Positions 2,606-9,376 of a stretch of DNA of 9,376 nt are shown piece by piece (the first letter of the stretch is position 1; each line of letters starts with the position of its first letter). The stretch comes from Planctomycetota bacterium (GTDB taxonomy: Bacteria > Planctomycetota > Planctomycetia > Pirellulales > Pirellulaceae). The DNA lies in assembly GCA_026692885.1 (NCBI GenBank), contig JAPLNJ010000822.1:1-9376 (forward strand), given 5' to 3'. The translations under genes were made by a program, and so were the position numbers. Below the pieces are notes generated by a model. The model was not told where the DNA came from. It searched no databases and saw only the letters and a list, made by a program, of their open reading frames with translations.

Positions 2606-3469
2606 ATGAGTCAGAGAATTGTGCCGTTGTTGACGATCTTGAGCCTGCTGTGCAGCGGGGCTGTTTTCGCTGGGGACCAGCAATCCGTCGAACAGATCAT
2701 CGTCACGCCCGAAGCAACCGACGAGATTCTGGCGAACCCCGGCATGGGCTGGGAAACGTTCCACCGCACCAGCCAGCAGGACAAGAGTCTGCCTTCGTGG
2801 ATACCGTCGACGGTGCATTACGCTCGTTGGGGTTGGGGCGAACTTGAGCCGCAGCCAAGCAAACTCAACACCGAGTTCCTCGACAAGGTGTTGCAGGAAA
2901 CGCACGACGCGGGTCAGAAGTTGGCGTTTCGGGTTATGACCTGCTCGACCAGCATCAACAACCCTTACCAGCCAAAATGGATCACCGAAGTCGGTGGCAA
3001 GGAATTGCTTGCGGACTACGACGGCCACGGCCCGTTCCCGATCCCCGACATGGATGATCCTGTCGTTCTCCAGCGCCATCTCGACTTAATCAAGCGGCTG
3101 GGTGAGCGGTATGACGGCCACGCCGACATCGACCACCTTGACCTCGGCTCCATCGGCTGGTGGGGCGAATGGCACCTGAGCGGGTCGAAGCACAAAGTAC
3201 CGACGCTTGAGAACCGCATGAAGGTGGTGGATGCCTACCTCGCCGCGTTCAAGAAGACGCCGCTGGTGATGCTGATCGGTGGGGGTGACTGTCTGAAATA
3301 TGCTTGTGACCACGGTGCTGGTTGGCGGGCTGACTGCCTGGGCGACATGGGCGGCTTCTCCAAGAATCAGCCACAGCGTCCAAGGCTTGCTGCGCCTCAG
3401 CCCCGGTTGCAGACAGCACCAGTTCGGTGCCCGGAATGGCTTCCAGTGATATCAGTCCCAGGATGCTAG
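2606..3469 (+). pseudogene. Secreted DUF4832/GH42-like barrel protein, 3'-truncated
   Basis: The ATG at 2606 follows AAGGA at 2593-2597 with 8-nt spacing. Residues 1-22 are a clear Sec signal peptide, with probable cleavage after AVFA. The mature part begins with NPGMGW (44-49), then VHYARWGWGELEPQ and a DLGSIGWWGEWH strand around 178-190. E188 of the GEW motif sits where clan-A-type beta/alpha barrels often carry an acidic catalytic residue. This pattern fits DUF4832-type proteins, which resemble GH42 and other barrel glycosidases. The substrate is unknown, and the neighbours suggest polysaccharide. Family-like sequence stops at GGFSK (K253, about position 3364). The 34 residues from there to the stop at 3469 are antisense read-through of the HPr-like gene and are not native. 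The rest of the barrel and the C-terminal domain are missing and were not found later in the window. Confidence 0.7.
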
Positions 3470-3686
3470 CAGCACTCGCCGATTGGCTCCCCTTCTGGAC
3501 AATCACTCTGGCTTGGTGTTTGCCGACCGTGTCCACGATAGCCGAGCAGGGTCGAAAATGAAGACCTCGTTCGTCGTTGACCTTCACCGTTCGGGTTGCT
3601 GTCTCCGATAGCAGTTGTCCGCCGCGAGATGCACCTGCAACGGCATGGAACGATGATTTTGCTGGGGCTTTCTGAACTGCAAGCAT
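3249..3686 (-). CDS. HPr-like phosphocarrier domain protein with N-terminal extension, extreme C-terminus replaced
   Basis: The start is the ATG at 3684-3686, chosen because AGGAGG lies at 3693-3698 with 6-nt spacing; a longer open frame to 3785 has no such site. Residues 1-28 are an extension without recognised function. Residues 31-107 match the HPr fold pattern: TRTVKVNDERGLHFRP, then ASILGLISLEAIPGTELVL, then GAEAQQALDAV. His43 corresponds to the phospho-accepting His15 of HPr and Ser74 to Ser46, and their spacing of 31 is exactly the classical one. The site reads GLHFRPC rather than the usual GLHARPA. Family sequence ends at about D107 (position 3366), a few residues short of a normal HPr. 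The remaining 38 codons to the stop at 3249 are antisense to the DUF4832-type gene. The domain may still fold. HPr proteins carry phosphate in PTS transport or in regulation; no EI, EII or HPr kinase is present here, so the role is unknown. Confidence 0.7.
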   Translation of the reverse strand: MLAVQKAPAKSSFHAVAGASRGGQLLSETATRTVKVNDERGLHFRPCSAIVDTVGKHQARVIVQKGSQSASAASILGLISLEAIPGTELVLSATGAEAQQALDAVADSWRSRPCRPGSQPANQHRGHKHISDSHPHRSASPAASS

Positions 3687-3692
3687 GTTCGT

Positions 3693-3698
3693 CCTCCT
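3693..3698 (-). promoter_or_regulatory. Ribosome binding site of the HPr-like gene
   Basis: Minus-strand AGGAGG, a full match to the Shine-Dalgarno core, lies 6 nt before the ATG at 3684-3686. It decides this start over the in-frame upstream ATG codons. Confidence 0.7.
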
Positions 3699-4078
3699 GA
3701 CGACGTGTAACAAATCCCTGGGTTGCCAAACCGGCGACATGATTTTCCCCGCTTGACGTTCGATCAAGGTGCAGCGGGAATTCACGTCGGAACCGCAAGA
3801 AACTACAACGACCCACGCTACTGCAAACGGCGTTCCACGCTAACGCAAACGGCGTTCCACGCTGGCCGTCGACATCATGGCGGGCCGCTAATCTGTTCGC
3901 CACCAATGGGATACGGTGTAGGCGGCTGGATTCCCTTCGATCGGCATCCTTTGAAAATCTTGCCAAGTCCGGTCAGCGAATCTGGGACGATTCCGCGAAC
4001 CATGATCCCCCGATTTTCGGCTGGGAAAGTCCGGTGGTTAGCCTGCCGATTTACTTCCCCATCACTGAGAACTGCACC
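3699..4078. other. Gene-poor stretch with a tandem repeat
   Basis: This is the region upstream of the HPr-like gene and of the small plus-strand ORF. Apart from the 22-bp tandem repeat at 3814-3863, no gene was recognised. One plus-strand frame stays open from before 3886 to about 4109 and ends with protein-like text (AKSGQRIWDDSANHDPP, SLPIYFPITENC). It has no start codon or family match that I can name and may be a gene relic. Confidence 0.35.
3814..3863. repeat. 22-bp tandem repeat, about 2.3 copies
   Basis: Copies at 3814-3835 and 3836-3857 agree at 20 of 22 positions, followed by a 6-base partial copy (CACGCT) to 3863. The shared core is GCAAACGGCGTTCCACGCT. The repeat lies in non-coding sequence, and the unit is not a multiple of 3. 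Confidence 0.8.
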
Positions 4079-5470: not shown

Positions 5471-8314
5471 TCACGGGGCCAACGGGCCGGCGTGCAGCGT
5501 CACGGGCTGCGACGACTCCGAACACGCCTTGCCCGTGGCATCCCGGATCGCTAGTCGCAGCCGAAAGGTCCCGGGCTCGGTTTTCAGCAGGGGCACGGCG
5601 ATCGTGGGCGGGTCCGACAGGTCCTGCCGAGCCTCGGCCCGCACCGCGTCTCCCGCTCCTTCCAAGGTGGCGACGACGGTGTGGCTCCCTTTCGTGACGG
5701 CCCCGATCCCGATCATGTCGAAGGCGCAGGCCAACGTCCGCCGGGGCAGCAGTAGGTGGCGAGGTGCGTCCAGTCCGGCGATCACGGGCGCCGTGAGCCG
5801 CTGAAGCGACACGTCCCCCACGTCGAAGACCAGTCGCGTCCCGTGTGCGTAGTCATGCTCGGAGATGAAGAGTTGCACGCGGCTGATCGACTTCCACGGC
5901 TCGGCCCCCGCATCCGCCGCCGTCATCATCGGCTTGACCGGGAAACGCACCAGGAACCACACCCGCTGCTGGCCGCCCAGATCCACCCGGGTCGAAACCA
6001 GCGACTTCTTCCCGCCGTGCGCCGAGAGGACCAACCCGATTGGCGTGTGGTCGTCCGTCACCTCATCGCGATCGGAGTCGATCCGGAACCAGAGTTCGAG
6101 GGTGTCGTACCGGCTCATATCGAGTTCGCCTGGCTTGAAGTCTCGCCCCAGCCTAGGCCAGCCGACCGGATACTTGCCGCCCTCGCCGCCATCGTGTTCA
6201 TGATCGATCTGGACCGTCCAGCGCAGCCCGTTCTGGCCGGCGTGCCGCGCGGCCTCGGTAACTTCCGTCTTCCCCTCCGCGGTCCCGTTTTTCCAGCCGG
6301 CGAAACCGCCGCCGAGGTCGAGCGTCTCCAGCGTCCCTGCGCGCGCCGCAGCCTCGTAAGGCGAGACACTCGCTGGGGAAGATTTCGTTCCGGTAGCTGC
6401 GGCGACCAGGACCGACGGAGCCGACGCCGTGGCCGTGGCCGGGAATTCGAGCAGCCGCGCCGTCTGGGACGCCAGACGCCAGCGGATGGCGTTGAACTCC
6501 TCCGACGGCCACATGCCGTCGGCCAGATACTTCGGCTGTACGCGGATCGCGTCCCAGGTCTCCTGCAGCAGTCGCCGCCCTTCGCCGACCGCCGCCAGAC
6601 AGGCCGGGTTCGGCGATCCCTCGCGCTGGACGATCGCCTGTTGCAGCGTGTAGACGTAGCGCGCGTCGTCAGACCCTTCGCGAAAGCATTCCCAGTAGAT
6701 CGCCGGGATGACTTCGCCCTGATCGTCCACCCGCTGCCCGCACCCGGAGTGCCGGCCGCGGAGGTAGTCGAACGGGTCCGGGCCCGCCGTCCAGCACCAG
6801 TGCCACGGGATCAACGTGGTGTACCCGCTCCGCCAGAGCCCGAACCCATAGGTCATCCGCCCGCCCTTGCACATGGTGCGGCGGTCCTTGATCTCGCCGG
6901 CGTTATGGTTCGGGTAACACCAGTACTCGTACCGGTCCTGGGCGACGATGCGGTCGTAGGGCACCGAATACGGCTGGGAGCACCAGATATCGAGGTGGGG
7001 CGCATAGCCAGCCGCATCGGCTCCGATCGGGTCCTTGGTCGCGTAGGTCCGCAAGCCCGCAGCCTTCACCGCAGCGTAGACCTGGACACCGAACTTCTGG
7101 CACGAAGCGTCGACCTCGTCGATCGGACAGCAGATGAATTCCGGCCAGCCCTTGGCCTGACGCTCCACCTCAAACGCCCGGAAGAGGGCCGTGAGCCGCT
7201 CGTAGAACGCCGGCGGGGGCAACGGGTCGACCCGCCAGTGGTCGCCATGTTTTCCGCCGGGCGTGGTGTCGCGGTAGAGCCGCGCGATGACGCCGTCCGC
7301 CGTGACCGGCGCGGGGCCCTTCAGGCCGGCCGCCAGCATCCGTTCGAGTTCCCCCGCCTGGGCCAGGACGATCCGGTGGCCGTCCTCGCAGTTCAGGGTG
7401 AGTGTCGGCAGCATGTCCAGGCCGTGGTCGACCATGGCCTGGTAGTCCTTGTCCGCGGCCTGGCGGATGAACGCCTCGTCGCGGCCCTGATACAGGACCT
7501 TGTTCCGCGGGTAGAAGTAGGCCGAGAAATGCTGGTGCGGGTCCTGTTGCAGGCGAAAGCCGAGAATGCGGAGCGCCAGCGGAATTTCGACGGCCTGGGC
7601 GAAGCCGTCGTCCCAGACGGTGACGGTCCCCCGGTACAGGCCGGCTTGGGCGTCATTCGGGACGTGGACCGTCAACCAGTACCACTGGCACTCGCCCGCA
7701 GGCGAGGTGTGCACGGTGACGCGCTCGAGGAGTTCCGGCACGCGGCGATACGTGCTGAGCGTGGTGTACGCCGGGTAGCCAACATTCCAGTAGGTGGCCA
7801 GGCGGACGTCGATGCGGCTGGCAGGGAGCTGGCCTGTGGCGGACGTGAGCGACGAAACCCTGACCTTCAGATTCTGGAGGGGACGCACGGGATAGAGGGC
7901 GAACGTGAGGGGCTCGAACTCGCCGGGCGTCGCGAAGGCGACCAAGGTCTCGAGCCTCTCGTGGGGCAGGGGCCGCGTGTTGGCGAACACACACTCGGTC
8001 AGCGGACGCTGGAACAGCAGATACCCCCGCTCCTGTTCCGGCCCGGTGAGAACCGGCTCGCAGGCGGTCTCGTCGAAGGGAATCGCTTTCGCGCCGTCCG
8101 GCACCGTCGGCTGCGGGCGTGGGCGCCGCTCCACCACGTTGTCAACCGGTTTGGGGCCCAGCCGGACGGTCGGCAGTTCCGTCGGTGCCGCCGCGTCAAC
8201 CACTGTCCCGTCCCCCAACGCCAGGCACGCGCCGAGCAGCACGAATGCCGCCGTGTGTGATTGCCGTCTGCCTGCCACGGATCTGCGCCGAACGCGGCAA
8301 GACCTAGGAATCAT
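5471..8314 (-). CDS. Secreted GH123/DUF4091-like glycoside hydrolase with C-terminal sandwich domains
   Basis: The ATG at 8312-8314 is preceded by AAGGAG with 8-nt spacing, giving 947 aa. The frame stays open to 8467, but that extension lies in the palindromic element. Residues 1-43 are an Arg-rich signal peptide (AAFVLLGACLALG). LGAC ending at Cys30 could be a lipobox, so Sec secretion and lipoprotein are both possible. About residues 44-250 are a beta-sandwich N-domain (ECQWYWLTVHVPNDAQAGLY). About 260-570 are a beta/alpha barrel with PEFICCPIDEVDAS. D399-E400 is placed like the Asp-Glu pair GH123 enzymes use for substrate-assisted hydrolysis of beta-N-acetylgalactosaminides. Further barrel text is SGYTTLIPWHWCWTAGPDPF and DDARYVYTL. 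About 660-840 look like a galactose-binding-type sandwich (SRYDTLELWFRIDSD ... FDVGDVSLQ), followed by another beta-rich domain to the end. It is longer than the 550-600 aa I recall for simple GH123 enzymes. It lies downstream of the fucosidase gene, probably co-transcribed. Actual sugar specificity is unproven. Confidence 0.8.
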   Translation of the reverse strand: MIPRSCRVRRRSVAGRRQSHTAAFVLLGACLALGDGTVVDAAAPTELPTVRLGPKPVDNVVERRPRPQPTVPDGAKAIPFDETACEPVLTGPEQERGYLLFQRPLTECVFANTRPLPHERLETLVAFATPGEFEPLTFALYPVRPLQNLKVRVSSLTSATGQLPASRIDVRLATYWNVGYPAYTTLSTYRRVPELLERVTVHTSPAGECQWYWLTVHVPNDAQAGLYRGTVTVWDDGFAQAVEIPLALRILGFRLQQDPHQHFSAYFYPRNKVLYQGRDEAFIRQAADKDYQAMVDHGLDMLPTLTLNCEDGHRIVLAQAGELERMLAAGLKGPAPVTADGVIARLYRDTTPGGKHGDHWRVDPLPPPAFYERLTALFRAFEVERQAKGWPEFICCPIDEVDASCQKFGVQVYAAVKAAGLRTYATKDPIGADAAGYAPHLDIWCSQPYSVPYDRIVAQDRYEYWCYPNHNAGEIKDRRTMCKGGRMTYGFGLWRSGYTTLIPWHWCWTAGPDPFDYLRGRHSGCGQRVDDQGEVIPAIYWECFREGSDDARYVYTLQQAIVQREGSPNPACLAAVGEGRRLLQETWDAIRVQPKYLADGMWPSEEFNAIRWRLASQTARLLEFPATATASAPSVLVAAATGTKSSPASVSPYEAAARAGTLETLDLGGGFAGWKNGTAEGKTEVTEAARHAGQNGLRWTVQIDHEHDGGEGGKYPVGWPRLGRDFKPGELDMSRYDTLELWFRIDSDRDEVTDDHTPIGLVLSAHGGKKSLVSTRVDLGGQQRVWFLVRFPVKPMMTAADAGAEPWKSISRVQLFISEHDYAHGTRLVFDVGDVSLQRLTAPVIAGLDAPRHLLLPRRTLACAFDMIGIGAVTKGSHTVVATLEGAGDAVRAEARQDLSDPPTIAVPLLKTEPGTFRLRLAIRDATGKACSESSQPVTLHAGPLAP

Positions 8315-8322
8315 AGTTGGTT

Positions 8323-8328
8323 CTCCTT
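8323..8328 (-). promoter_or_regulatory. Ribosome binding site of the GH123-like gene
   Basis: Minus-strand AAGGAG lies 8 nt before the ATG at 8312-8314. It fixes the start downstream of the palindromic element rather than inside it. Confidence 0.7.
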
Positions 8329-8356
8329 GCCAGCCAGCCGGGGGTTGGACCAGCGT

Positions 8357-8488
8357 GGCCCTTAGGAGCGGCGCATCAATAACTGTCGCAAGTATAGTAG
8401 TCGTCACGCTCCGCCGTGACGACATGTCATCACGCGGAGCGTTATGACTACTTTGAAAACCCGACACTTATTGATGCGCCGGCCCTTA
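8357..8488. mobile_element. MITE-like palindromic element with 8-bp direct repeats
   Basis: The outer arms 8370-8388 and 8462-8480 are inverted copies matching at 18 of 19 bases (GGCGCATCAATAA then C or G, then TGTCG). An inner pair, 8396-8414 and 8434-8452, matches at 17 of 19, and the centre carries the perfect palindrome GACATGTC (8421-8428). Nearly the whole element therefore folds into one long hairpin. The octamer GGCCCTTA occurs at 8357-8364 and again at 8481-8488, directly at the right end and 5 bp outside the left arm. That fits an 8-bp target duplication. Alternatively the arms extend outward (10 of 13 further matches) to TA at both ends, as in IS630/Tc1-mariner-type insertions. There is no coding capacity, so it would need a transposase in trans. 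The fucosidase stop codon TAA (8486-8488) is inside the right direct repeat. The hairpin would be transcribed between the two enzyme genes. Confidence 0.75.
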
Positions 8489-9376
8489 CTTGGCCGGCGC
8501 CAGCTTGATCGACCGCAGGTTCAGTGGTTGCCAGCCGTCGGCGACGGCCTTGACGCTGAGGGTTATCTTGCCGGGCTTGGCCAAGTCGATCACCCCGATC
8601 GCCACGCTCTGGAACTTCCCGTAGTCGCCCGTATTGGGAGCCTTCGCGTTGAGCTTCTGGTCGCCGACCGCGACCGTGAACGAGCCGGTGCCCTGGGTGG
8701 CGATTTCCGCCGTGGCCTGGAACTTGCCGGGCTTGGTGACTTCGAATTGCCACTCGACCCAGTCGCTCGGGTTGAGCCAGAAACCGATACAATCGCGGTT
8801 CGATCCGCCCTCGAACTTGATCTGCCCGCCGTGCGTGATCGCCTCTTCGGCGGGCAACGTCATCGAACCGTCGGCCGCCTGGCGTAGTGCCGGCGCACTG
8901 GCAAGCACGTCCGCAGCTCCCTCAATCTCCACGACGACCACACTGGCATTGGCGTCCGGCGCGGCGACGGGCATGGTCAGCGTCTGACCGCCGTCCGATT
9001 TCTCCGACTTCAGCTCGATTGTCGGTTGGGCCAGGAGGTACGCCTTTTTCACTTGGTTGGCGACCGGCACCAGGAGCTTGCCGTCCTGGGGCCATTGGAA
9101 GACGTGCAGGTAGAGCTTGCCCGGTTTCTGCGTACACTTGCCGAACGCCAACTTCTTGAACGGGCTGGCGGTAGTGCCATAGATTGACTCGCCGTTGACC
9201 TTCACCCACTGGCCGATCTCAGCCATCCTCTCGACGCTGGGGCCGGGGATCAGCCCTTCGCTCGTCGGGCCGACGTTCAACAGATAGTTACCCCCCTTGC
9301 TGGCGCAGTCGATCAGGTTGCGGATTAACATTTGCGTCGACTTCCAGTTCTGGTCGGCCTTGTTGTAGCCCCAGTG
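8486..9376 (-). CDS. GH29 alpha-L-fucosidase, C-terminal part (runs off the window)
   Basis: The frame is open through the right edge, so the 296 residues visible are only the C-terminal part; the nucleophile region lies outside. The first residues, HWGYNKADQNWKSTQM then LIRNLIDCASKGGNYLLNVG and PTSEGLIP, are the highly typical end of the GH29 catalytic barrel. Next come about 130 residues of the usual C-terminal beta-sandwich (GQWVKVNGESIYGTTASPF to SVVVVEIEG). An extra carbohydrate-binding-like domain of about 120 residues follows (FWLNPSDWVEWQFEVTKPGK ... GKITLSVKAVADGWQP). The family removes alpha-L-fucose from glycans with retention, usually outside the cytoplasm. The internal ATG at 9329-9331 is not the start. 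The GH123-like gene follows in the same direction, separated by the palindromic element. The TAA stop overlaps the element's border repeat. Confidence 0.9.
   Translation of the reverse strand, partial: HWGYNKADQNWKSTQMLIRNLIDCASKGGNYLLNVGPTSEGLIPGPSVERMAEIGQWVKVNGESIYGTTASPFKKLAFGKCTQKPGKLYLHVFQWPQDGKLLVPVANQVKKAYLLAQPTIELKSEKSDGGQTLTMPVAAPDANASVVVVEIEGAADVLASAPALRQAADGSMTLPAEEAITHGGQIKFEGGSNRDCIGFWLNPSDWVEWQFEVTKPGKFQATAEIATQGTGSFTVAVGDQKLNAKAPNTGDYGKFQSVAIGVIDLAKPGKITLSVKAVADGWQPLNLRSIKLAPAK

Follow-up and report, generated by a model that had tools for sequence, protein, structure and literature searches.

The fucosidase–GH123 intergenic region

The window, by which we mean the whole analysed stretch of 9,376 nucleotides, contains a palindromic element between two genes of the minus strand, namely the C-terminal part of an alpha-L-fucosidase upstream and a GH123-like gene downstream. 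The GH123-like gene starts with the ATG at 8314, which is preceded by AAGGAG, and the TAA stop codon of the fucosidase (minus strand) occupies 8486-8488. The gap between the two genes spans 171 nt and shrinks to 47 nt once the element and one copy of its target duplication are subtracted, a value somewhat above the roughly 40 bp of the initial annotation. The features of the locus are as follows:

5471 to 8314, minus strand: GH123-like protein of 947 aa (PF22680, 29.9 bits, cut-off 27)
8486 to 9376, minus strand: C-terminal part of an alpha-L-fucosidase with DUF5077 (PF01120, E 2.9e-20; PF16871, E 1.7e-5)
8365 to 8485, no strand assigned: whole element, 121 bp, a probable MITE shell with ISAzo13-type ends and an internal REP pair (bounds from 31 relatives and 41 partly overlapping ones)
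8362 to 8364, no strand assigned: left copy of the target duplication TTA, 3 bp (comparison with relatives)
8486 to 8488, no strand assigned: right copy of the target duplication TTA, the TAA stop of the fucosidase on the minus strand (comparison with relatives)
8365 to 8388, plus strand: left terminal inverted repeat, 24 bp (21/24 to the right repeat; family ends)
8462 to 8485, minus strand: right terminal inverted repeat, 24 bp (family ends; the outer GGCCC beside TTA also in locus L451)
8397 to 8423, plus strand: REP unit 1, a GTAG foot followed by a 9/9 stem around CTCCGC (type present in 29/397 genomes)
8426 to 8451, minus strand: REP unit 2, a GTAG foot and stem-loop in reverse orientation, 2 nt from unit 1 (inverted-repeat analysis and relatives)

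The palindrome is genuine and far exceeds what chance would produce. In 12 base shuffles, the best 25-nt inverted pair within 501 bp scored 15-18; in the native sequence it scored 22. The transcribed (minus) strand of 8340-8500 is predicted to fold as RNA at -88.5 kcal/mol (z -9.1), with 0 of 200 shuffles equally stable, in agreement with the strong RNA hairpin anticipated by the initial annotation; folded as DNA, the same stretch gave z -10.3. The outer inverted ends, annotated at 18/19, are present inside the 25-nt arm (88%), as are the inner inverted pair (8396-8414/8434-8452, 17/19) and the palindromic centre. However, these parts do not form one palindrome of a single kind, as had been supposed, but a transposon shell around an inverted REP pair, the latter consisting of two oppositely oriented GTAG-plus-stem-loop units with 2 nt between them. 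The element has no coding capacity, as the ORFs that cross it run via the palindromic arms into flanking DNA. Its 24-bp terminal repeats, target duplication, length and non-coding nature all lie within the usual description of a MITE (terminal inverted repeats of ~15-30 bp, a target duplication, a size of ~70-300 bp and no coding capacity). Rfam gave no match to the element, and plasmid and phage collections returned only fragments (20-23% query cover, E 4-5).

Given this fold and the position between co-directional genes that would otherwise lie 47 nt apart, the palindrome could in principle be a local regulatory hairpin of a fucosidase–GH123 operon, a terminator or attenuator that is not mobile. 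We regard this as very improbable, since unrelated loci carry the same ends together with target duplications, as described below, and Rfam yielded no counterpart. Moreover, 0 intrinsic terminators (GC-rich stem plus T run) were predicted in 8250-8600, and no sigma-70-like promoter was predicted. The gene pair itself also argues against it: a tblastn search for the orthologous empty site with the fucosidase part (296 residues) gave 0 matches in the 22 closest GH123 loci (L001-L022, several of them short), so that fucosidase and GH123 were found paired in 0/22 of these loci.

Among the GH123 relatives, the one with the highest identity over its match (L016; 84%, residues 48-471) comes from a MAG labelled Acidobacteria, and others are in Verrucomicrobia; either horizontal transfer or mis-binning may lie behind relatives in genomes so labelled. 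Elsewhere in the window, at 2606-3785, a plus-strand ORF and an opposite-strand HPr-domain gene (PF00381) overlap tail-to-tail at ~3250-3470, and each appears altered at its end, possibly through a rearrangement or an assembly fault. A DUF5703-type gene on the minus strand (638-2296 and 672-1418) shows an apparent frame change near 1100-1400.

Shell ends in relatives and their ISAzo13 type

The GH123-homologue loci were fetched first, and the 13-base end was counted in nine of their genomes at ≤1 mismatch against a reversed control. Genome G008 gave 43 matches versus 5 reversed, and the other eight gave 1 to 10 versus 2 to 7. Across 397 genomes of G008's class, GGCGCATCAATAASTGTCG (≤1 mismatch) was found in nine, with 0 for the read-backwards control. 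One of these nine, G243, led to a sample of 170 genomes of one planctomycete family, possibly the Planctomycetaceae, 34 of which carry the end at ≤2 mismatches. Because the reversed control yields 0-2 matches per genome, single-match genomes may be due to chance. Five or more end matches were present in G378 (108), G424 (103), G210 (45), G432 (27), G426 (26), G446 (13), G433 (6), G165 (5) and G243 (5). The recurrence in relatives that the initial annotation had proposed to look for is therefore present.

Most of the excised elements measure 98-100 bp. At both termini they carry GGNNC followed by GGCGCATCAATAACTGTCG or a close variant, and TTA or TAA borders the majority of them. In a first extraction, 13 of 40 stretches yielded no end pair; the 32-element alignment, built with looser matching, comprises 29 of the 40 stretches (excluding L251, L255, L264, L270, L271 and L282-L287) together with L108, L194 and the window. 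All 31 relatives in this set, and all but three of 41 in a second set, measure 98-100 bp, and the window element, at 121 bp, is 22 bp longer than nearly all of them. Identical 3-bp flanks border 23 of the 32 aligned elements, window included (15 TTA, 6 TAA, 1 TTG and 1 CAA), and the remaining 9/32 lack them; within G378, 13/19 elements have identical flanks. Terminal repeats, a TTA duplication and ends that recur in relatives together bear out a MITE-like insertion as originally annotated. The length in L250-L289 and L363-L402 is nearly constant despite unrelated interiors, as if transposition required it. G008 (L081-L100) also contains a distinct family of elements, roughly 200 bp in size, that have GGGACGGCTCATCAATAACTTCGGC ends, often sit between TTA or TAA and show no evident REP pair; in L083, two such elements abut with one TTA in common.

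The initial annotation had read the perfect GGCCCTTA copies at 8357-8364 and 8481-8488 as an 8-bp target duplication. The copies are indeed perfect, but the duplication is TTA: an 8-bp duplication would lie outside the terminal repeats, and of these eight bases five belong to the right repeat, as its outer end. The five bases needed for a repeat of 8 bp agree completely in the window alone and at ≤3/5 positions in the 31 aligned relatives, where the five bases beside the triplet are part of the element. L451 (G414), a lone end, likewise has GGCCC beside TTA, with a flank that differs from the window's. Because the 31 relatives and L451 place GGCCC inside the right terminal repeat, the window element is 8365-8485 with TTA as its target duplication, and GGCCCTTA must be called TTA plus a five-base match, its extension to 8 bp in the left flank being a coincidence. 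IS families with 8-bp duplications exist, and a perfect 8-bp direct repeat does flank the inner part of the ends; an origin from such a family nevertheless has next to no probability in our estimate, given the relatives, L451 and the fact that the related ISs encode ISAzo13 transposases. The longer duplication was overcalled because element end and flank chanced to match, and a perfect 8-bp repeat of this sort is a caution for duplication calling.

The right-hand triplet at 8486-8488 reads TAA on the minus strand, so the fucosidase stop codon does lie within the border repeat, as first described. The duplication terminates an ORF with ≥80 open codons in 10 of 42 elements, window included; among the TAA/TTA sites of these loci, 42 of 305 do so. 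Counted by genome, stop-codon insertions number 5/10 in G426, 3/10 in G432, 1/2 in G243 and 0/19 in G378, and we claim no target preference for stop codons. In L383, L385, L386 and L389 (G426), L393 (G432) and L194 (G243), the adjoining triplet is the stop of a frame open for at least 270 codons, like that of the window.

The type of the ends was assigned from ISs of the relatives. In L110 (G351), the end precedes the N-terminus of an ISAzo13 transposase in a truncated copy (NF033519, E 7e-13, 48 bits, below the 200-bit cut-off), and it matches either window end at 20/24 and the right end of the relative L108 at 22/24. In L120 and L125, ends lie behind transposase C-termini and match the window ends at 19/24. 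ISAzo13 transposases above the NF033519 cut-off of 200 bits are encoded in L291 (391 bits), L290 (567) and L298 (442). Both ends of window-like layout were recovered in five complete ISAzo13 ISs, with TTA/TAA repeats in three (L114, L291 and L292); L114 and L292 have interrupted transposase reading frames, and L290 and L298 have the ends and lack matching 3-bp flanks. PF07592 occurs in 6/9 and 8/8 genomes with ends versus 0/14 control genomes. In the shell-rich G424, G426 and G432, the transposase is present as short fragments only, and among the planctomycete genomes examined there was no intact ISAzo13 IS with precisely the window's ends. In the transposase loci L111-L113 (G008, G291 and G228), family-type ends were absent in a first scan, and a later one recovered an end in L112 and none in L111 or L113. 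The initial annotation had also suggested looking for a full IS with the same ends; its counterpart here is in part the truncated transposase behind the 20/24 end, whereas the complete ISAzo13 ISs have related but different ends. IS5/IS1031 elements also make TNA duplications; an origin from them was set aside because the transposases found, in searches for the ISAzo13 type, are ISAzo13.

The REP pair and the other payloads of the shell

Exact GTAGTCRTMACGCTCCGC was found in 29 of 397 genomes, with a read-backwards control of 0; the richest genomes hold 141, 101, 62, 38 and 38 copies, and many of the 29 hold only one to three. An opposite REP unit lies ≤400 bp away in 16/30 loci. At two of the 50 Y1_Tnp loci examined (L209 and L217, in G095 and G321), the window-type REP stands on both sides of a Y1_Tnp/RAYT gene. 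The two gene products are 67% identical, and their best model is the REP-associated tyrosine transposase NF047646 (E 1e-17 and 5e-16, below cut-off). G150, the genome richest in the REP, has it at 0 of seven examined RAYT-type loci (of eight). The inner sequence thus has the properties of a GTAG-tagged REP, with a GTAG foot and stem-loop in both units, copies and pairs in relatives, and an associated RAYT gene in two genomes. For an element to which the initial annotation could put no name, this provides a partial answer: a GTAG-tagged REP pair within ISAzo13-type ends. The sequence that follows REP unit 2 (CTAC-TTTG; 8452-8461 in the window, and in L404, L410, L411, L441 and L449) is similar to what commonly borders bare REPs in the family, as though the pair had been taken up with a bit of its own surroundings. 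In L218 (G306), a further GTAG unit, GTAGGCGACTCGCTCCGC, flanks a Y1_Tnp gene on either side at a distance of some hundreds of bases.

The shells of other genomes enclose other sequences. In G243, the shell surrounds another GTAG pair at two unrelated sites, and a further, degenerate copy without a target duplication surrounds CTTTCGC hairpins. The payload of G432 and G433 consists of CTTTCGC dimers, that of G426 and G165 of GCCGACGC/GCGGATGC hairpins, and that of G378 of yet other types. In the G432/G433 payload, CGTC/TGTC-like letters precede CTTTCGC-TCC-GCGAAAG, but stem and loop differ from the published CGTC families, for which we took a CGTC foot, an 8-9 bp stem and a 4-5 nt loop as criterion. 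Interiors of six genomes were unrelated in 14 of 15 pairwise local alignments; those of the window and G432 aligned above shuffles, with CGCTCCGCG common to both by eye. In G243, the CTTTCGC dimers of L335, L359 and L361 lie in another, longer palindrome (CCCAATGGCC..CAGAGTTGTG / CACAACTCTG..GGCCATTGGG or similar forms), which may be another type of shell.

Folding of one element each from G432, G426, G378, G243 and the window gave z -6.6 to -10.3, some of the folded pieces being a few bases short of the ends. The shell interior of G424, a genome with 103 end matches, is barely more stable than its shuffles (z -1.9 to -2.2), and shells therefore need not contain hairpin dimers. The hairpin dimer is a common payload, not a general one.

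Shell and payload are also distributed separately. Four payload types occur outside shells as well: window-type REPs in genomes of the same family, including the shell genomes G378 and G165; the G243 type in G210; the G432 dimers at 7 of 12 places, which were hand-picked, not sampled, with shells judged by eye; and the G426 type at 11/15 loci, against 3/15 inside shells. Conversely, eight of the nine GGCGCATCAATAASTGTCG shell genomes have 0 exact copies of the window REP (the ninth, G008, was not in the REP sample), from which it follows that REP and shell are separately distributed.

These data bear on whether the interior was acquired at all. An ancestral MITE of ~99 bp, with a centre that diverged fast in each lineage, would have captured nothing, and its likeness to REPs would be convergence. 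It would accommodate the near-equal length across unrelated interiors (98-100 bp in 31/31 and in all but three of 41) and the strong folding of five of the six interior types examined, but it fits poorly with the presence of the same dimers outside shells (window-type REPs in family genomes, G378 and G165 among them, and 11/15 loci of the G426 type), with the eight sampled shell genomes that lack the exact window REP, with two payload types within one kind of shell in G243, and with the window-type REPs that flank RAYT genes. We consider such an origin unlikely.

A BLAST search of the window element against the 170 genomes matched either the shell part or the REP part. Some REP matches extended toward the right end (query position 113-119), and 14 such or similar places were fetched. 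In 13, which carry the REP, no shell end was found at ≤6 mismatches and the extension is the REP flank CTACTTTG...; the 14th is the lone shell end L451. The exact combination, a shell end followed by GTAGTC within 25 nt, was found in 0 of the 170 genomes; the order-level sample for this search was the same 170 genomes as the family sample.

A RAYT could also have moved the REP pair into a pre-existing palindrome at this site, in which case shell and pair did not move as a unit. REPs are thought to be RAYT-mobilised, REP dimers within palindromes are described for two species in the available part of a survey (PMC3733652), and the window element is 22 bp longer than most shells. Even so, the TTA flanks lie outside the shell, as in the relatives, and in G243 a shell and a GTAG pair occur together at two unrelated sites, and this course of events appears quite improbable to us.

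Proposed mechanism and comparison with known systems

In our assessment, the element is probably a non-autonomous transposon (MITE) with ISAzo13-type ends that holds an inverted GTAG REP pair as cargo. The 24-bp ends would be recognised in trans by a DDE transposase of the ISAzo13 family encoded at another place in the genome, and this enzyme would integrate the unit at TNA sites and duplicate 3 bp in the process; that the shells are moved by such a transposase is something we infer from ends of the same type. At this locus, the unit would have inserted into the TAA stop codon of the fucosidase, and the duplication would have restored it; since that stop codon is the very triplet that was duplicated, neither gene is disrupted. 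Landing on a TAA stop and rebuilding it would be a simple way for an element with a TNA target to enter an operon without gene breakage. The REP pair would be cargo here, as other cargo would be in the shells of other genomes, and dimers may have entered shells by insertion or recombination. In the transcript, a very stable predicted hairpin would directly follow the fucosidase stop, and it may separate the fucosidase from GH123 and mildly alter mRNA decay or read-through; REPs elsewhere have been proposed to act on mRNA or transcription, in the part of the survey available to us (PMC3733652).

One selfish element here seems to carry another, a REP pair within a MITE. More broadly, the chances are about even that, in one planctomycete family, ISAzo13-type shells of almost constant length (~99 bp) are interchangeable carriers, spread by a DDE transposase, that have repeatedly acquired unrelated REP dimers, part of them RAYT-linked and part lacking a known transposase. 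As unrelated REP-like dimers, among them a GTAG pair with a RAYT link, sit inside transposon-ended shells, mostly with 3-bp duplications, an unrelated DDE transposase would be a concrete vehicle for REP spread. Should the carrier model be correct, REP families would also be disseminated by a second route that does not depend on RAYTs, and comparable shells could account for the palindromes reported around REP dimers in other phyla. The 2013 survey found no dedicated transposase for CGTC REPs and raised the question whether they are mobilised by other transposases (PMC3733652).

MITEs, ISAzo13 ISs and GTAG REPs are each already known. The literature searched, which included few subscription papers, held no description of REP dimers in ISAzo13-type shells, or of one shell with unrelated REP dimers across species. 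With ISAzo13 elements (NF033519 / PF07592), the window element shares the layout of the ends (GGANC, a GC-rich stretch, AATAA and TNNCG), the TTA/TAA duplications that three out of five complete ISs from the same bacterial family show, and the 20/24 match to the end of the truncated copy. It differs from these ISs in being 121 bp long and non-coding, with a REP pair inside and ends that are related, not identical. With the GTAG REPs, BIMEs, REPINs and REPtrons, as characterised in the available part of PMC3733652, it has in common a GTAG foot, a short stem-loop, opposite pairs, many copies and the flanking of RAYT genes; in contrast to the dimers of that survey, the window pair is enclosed in DDE-type ends, a possible second route of spread. 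By description, the window element also resembles structures of Anabaena variabilis and Halothiobacillus neapolitanus, in which REP pairs (GTAG-15 and CGTC-1) regularly lie inside a longer palindrome; the pertinent text of the survey treats these palindromes as targets and names no transposase (PMC3733652). The closest parallel in composition is QMITE2 of Coxiella, a MITE with terminal and direct repeats and a GTAG REP inside, located mainly in 3' untranslated or intergenic positions, as far as the available text of PMC5896051 describes it. QMITE2 differs in its size (150-190 bp) and in its duplications of 7-11 nt (PMC5896051). In the same portion of that account, REP-like copies are treated as truncated MITEs and IS1111 targets, and differing dimers in one shell do not feature (PMC5896051). 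On that description, the Coxiella MITE with its GTAG REP is a partial precedent for the element in the window (PMC5896051).
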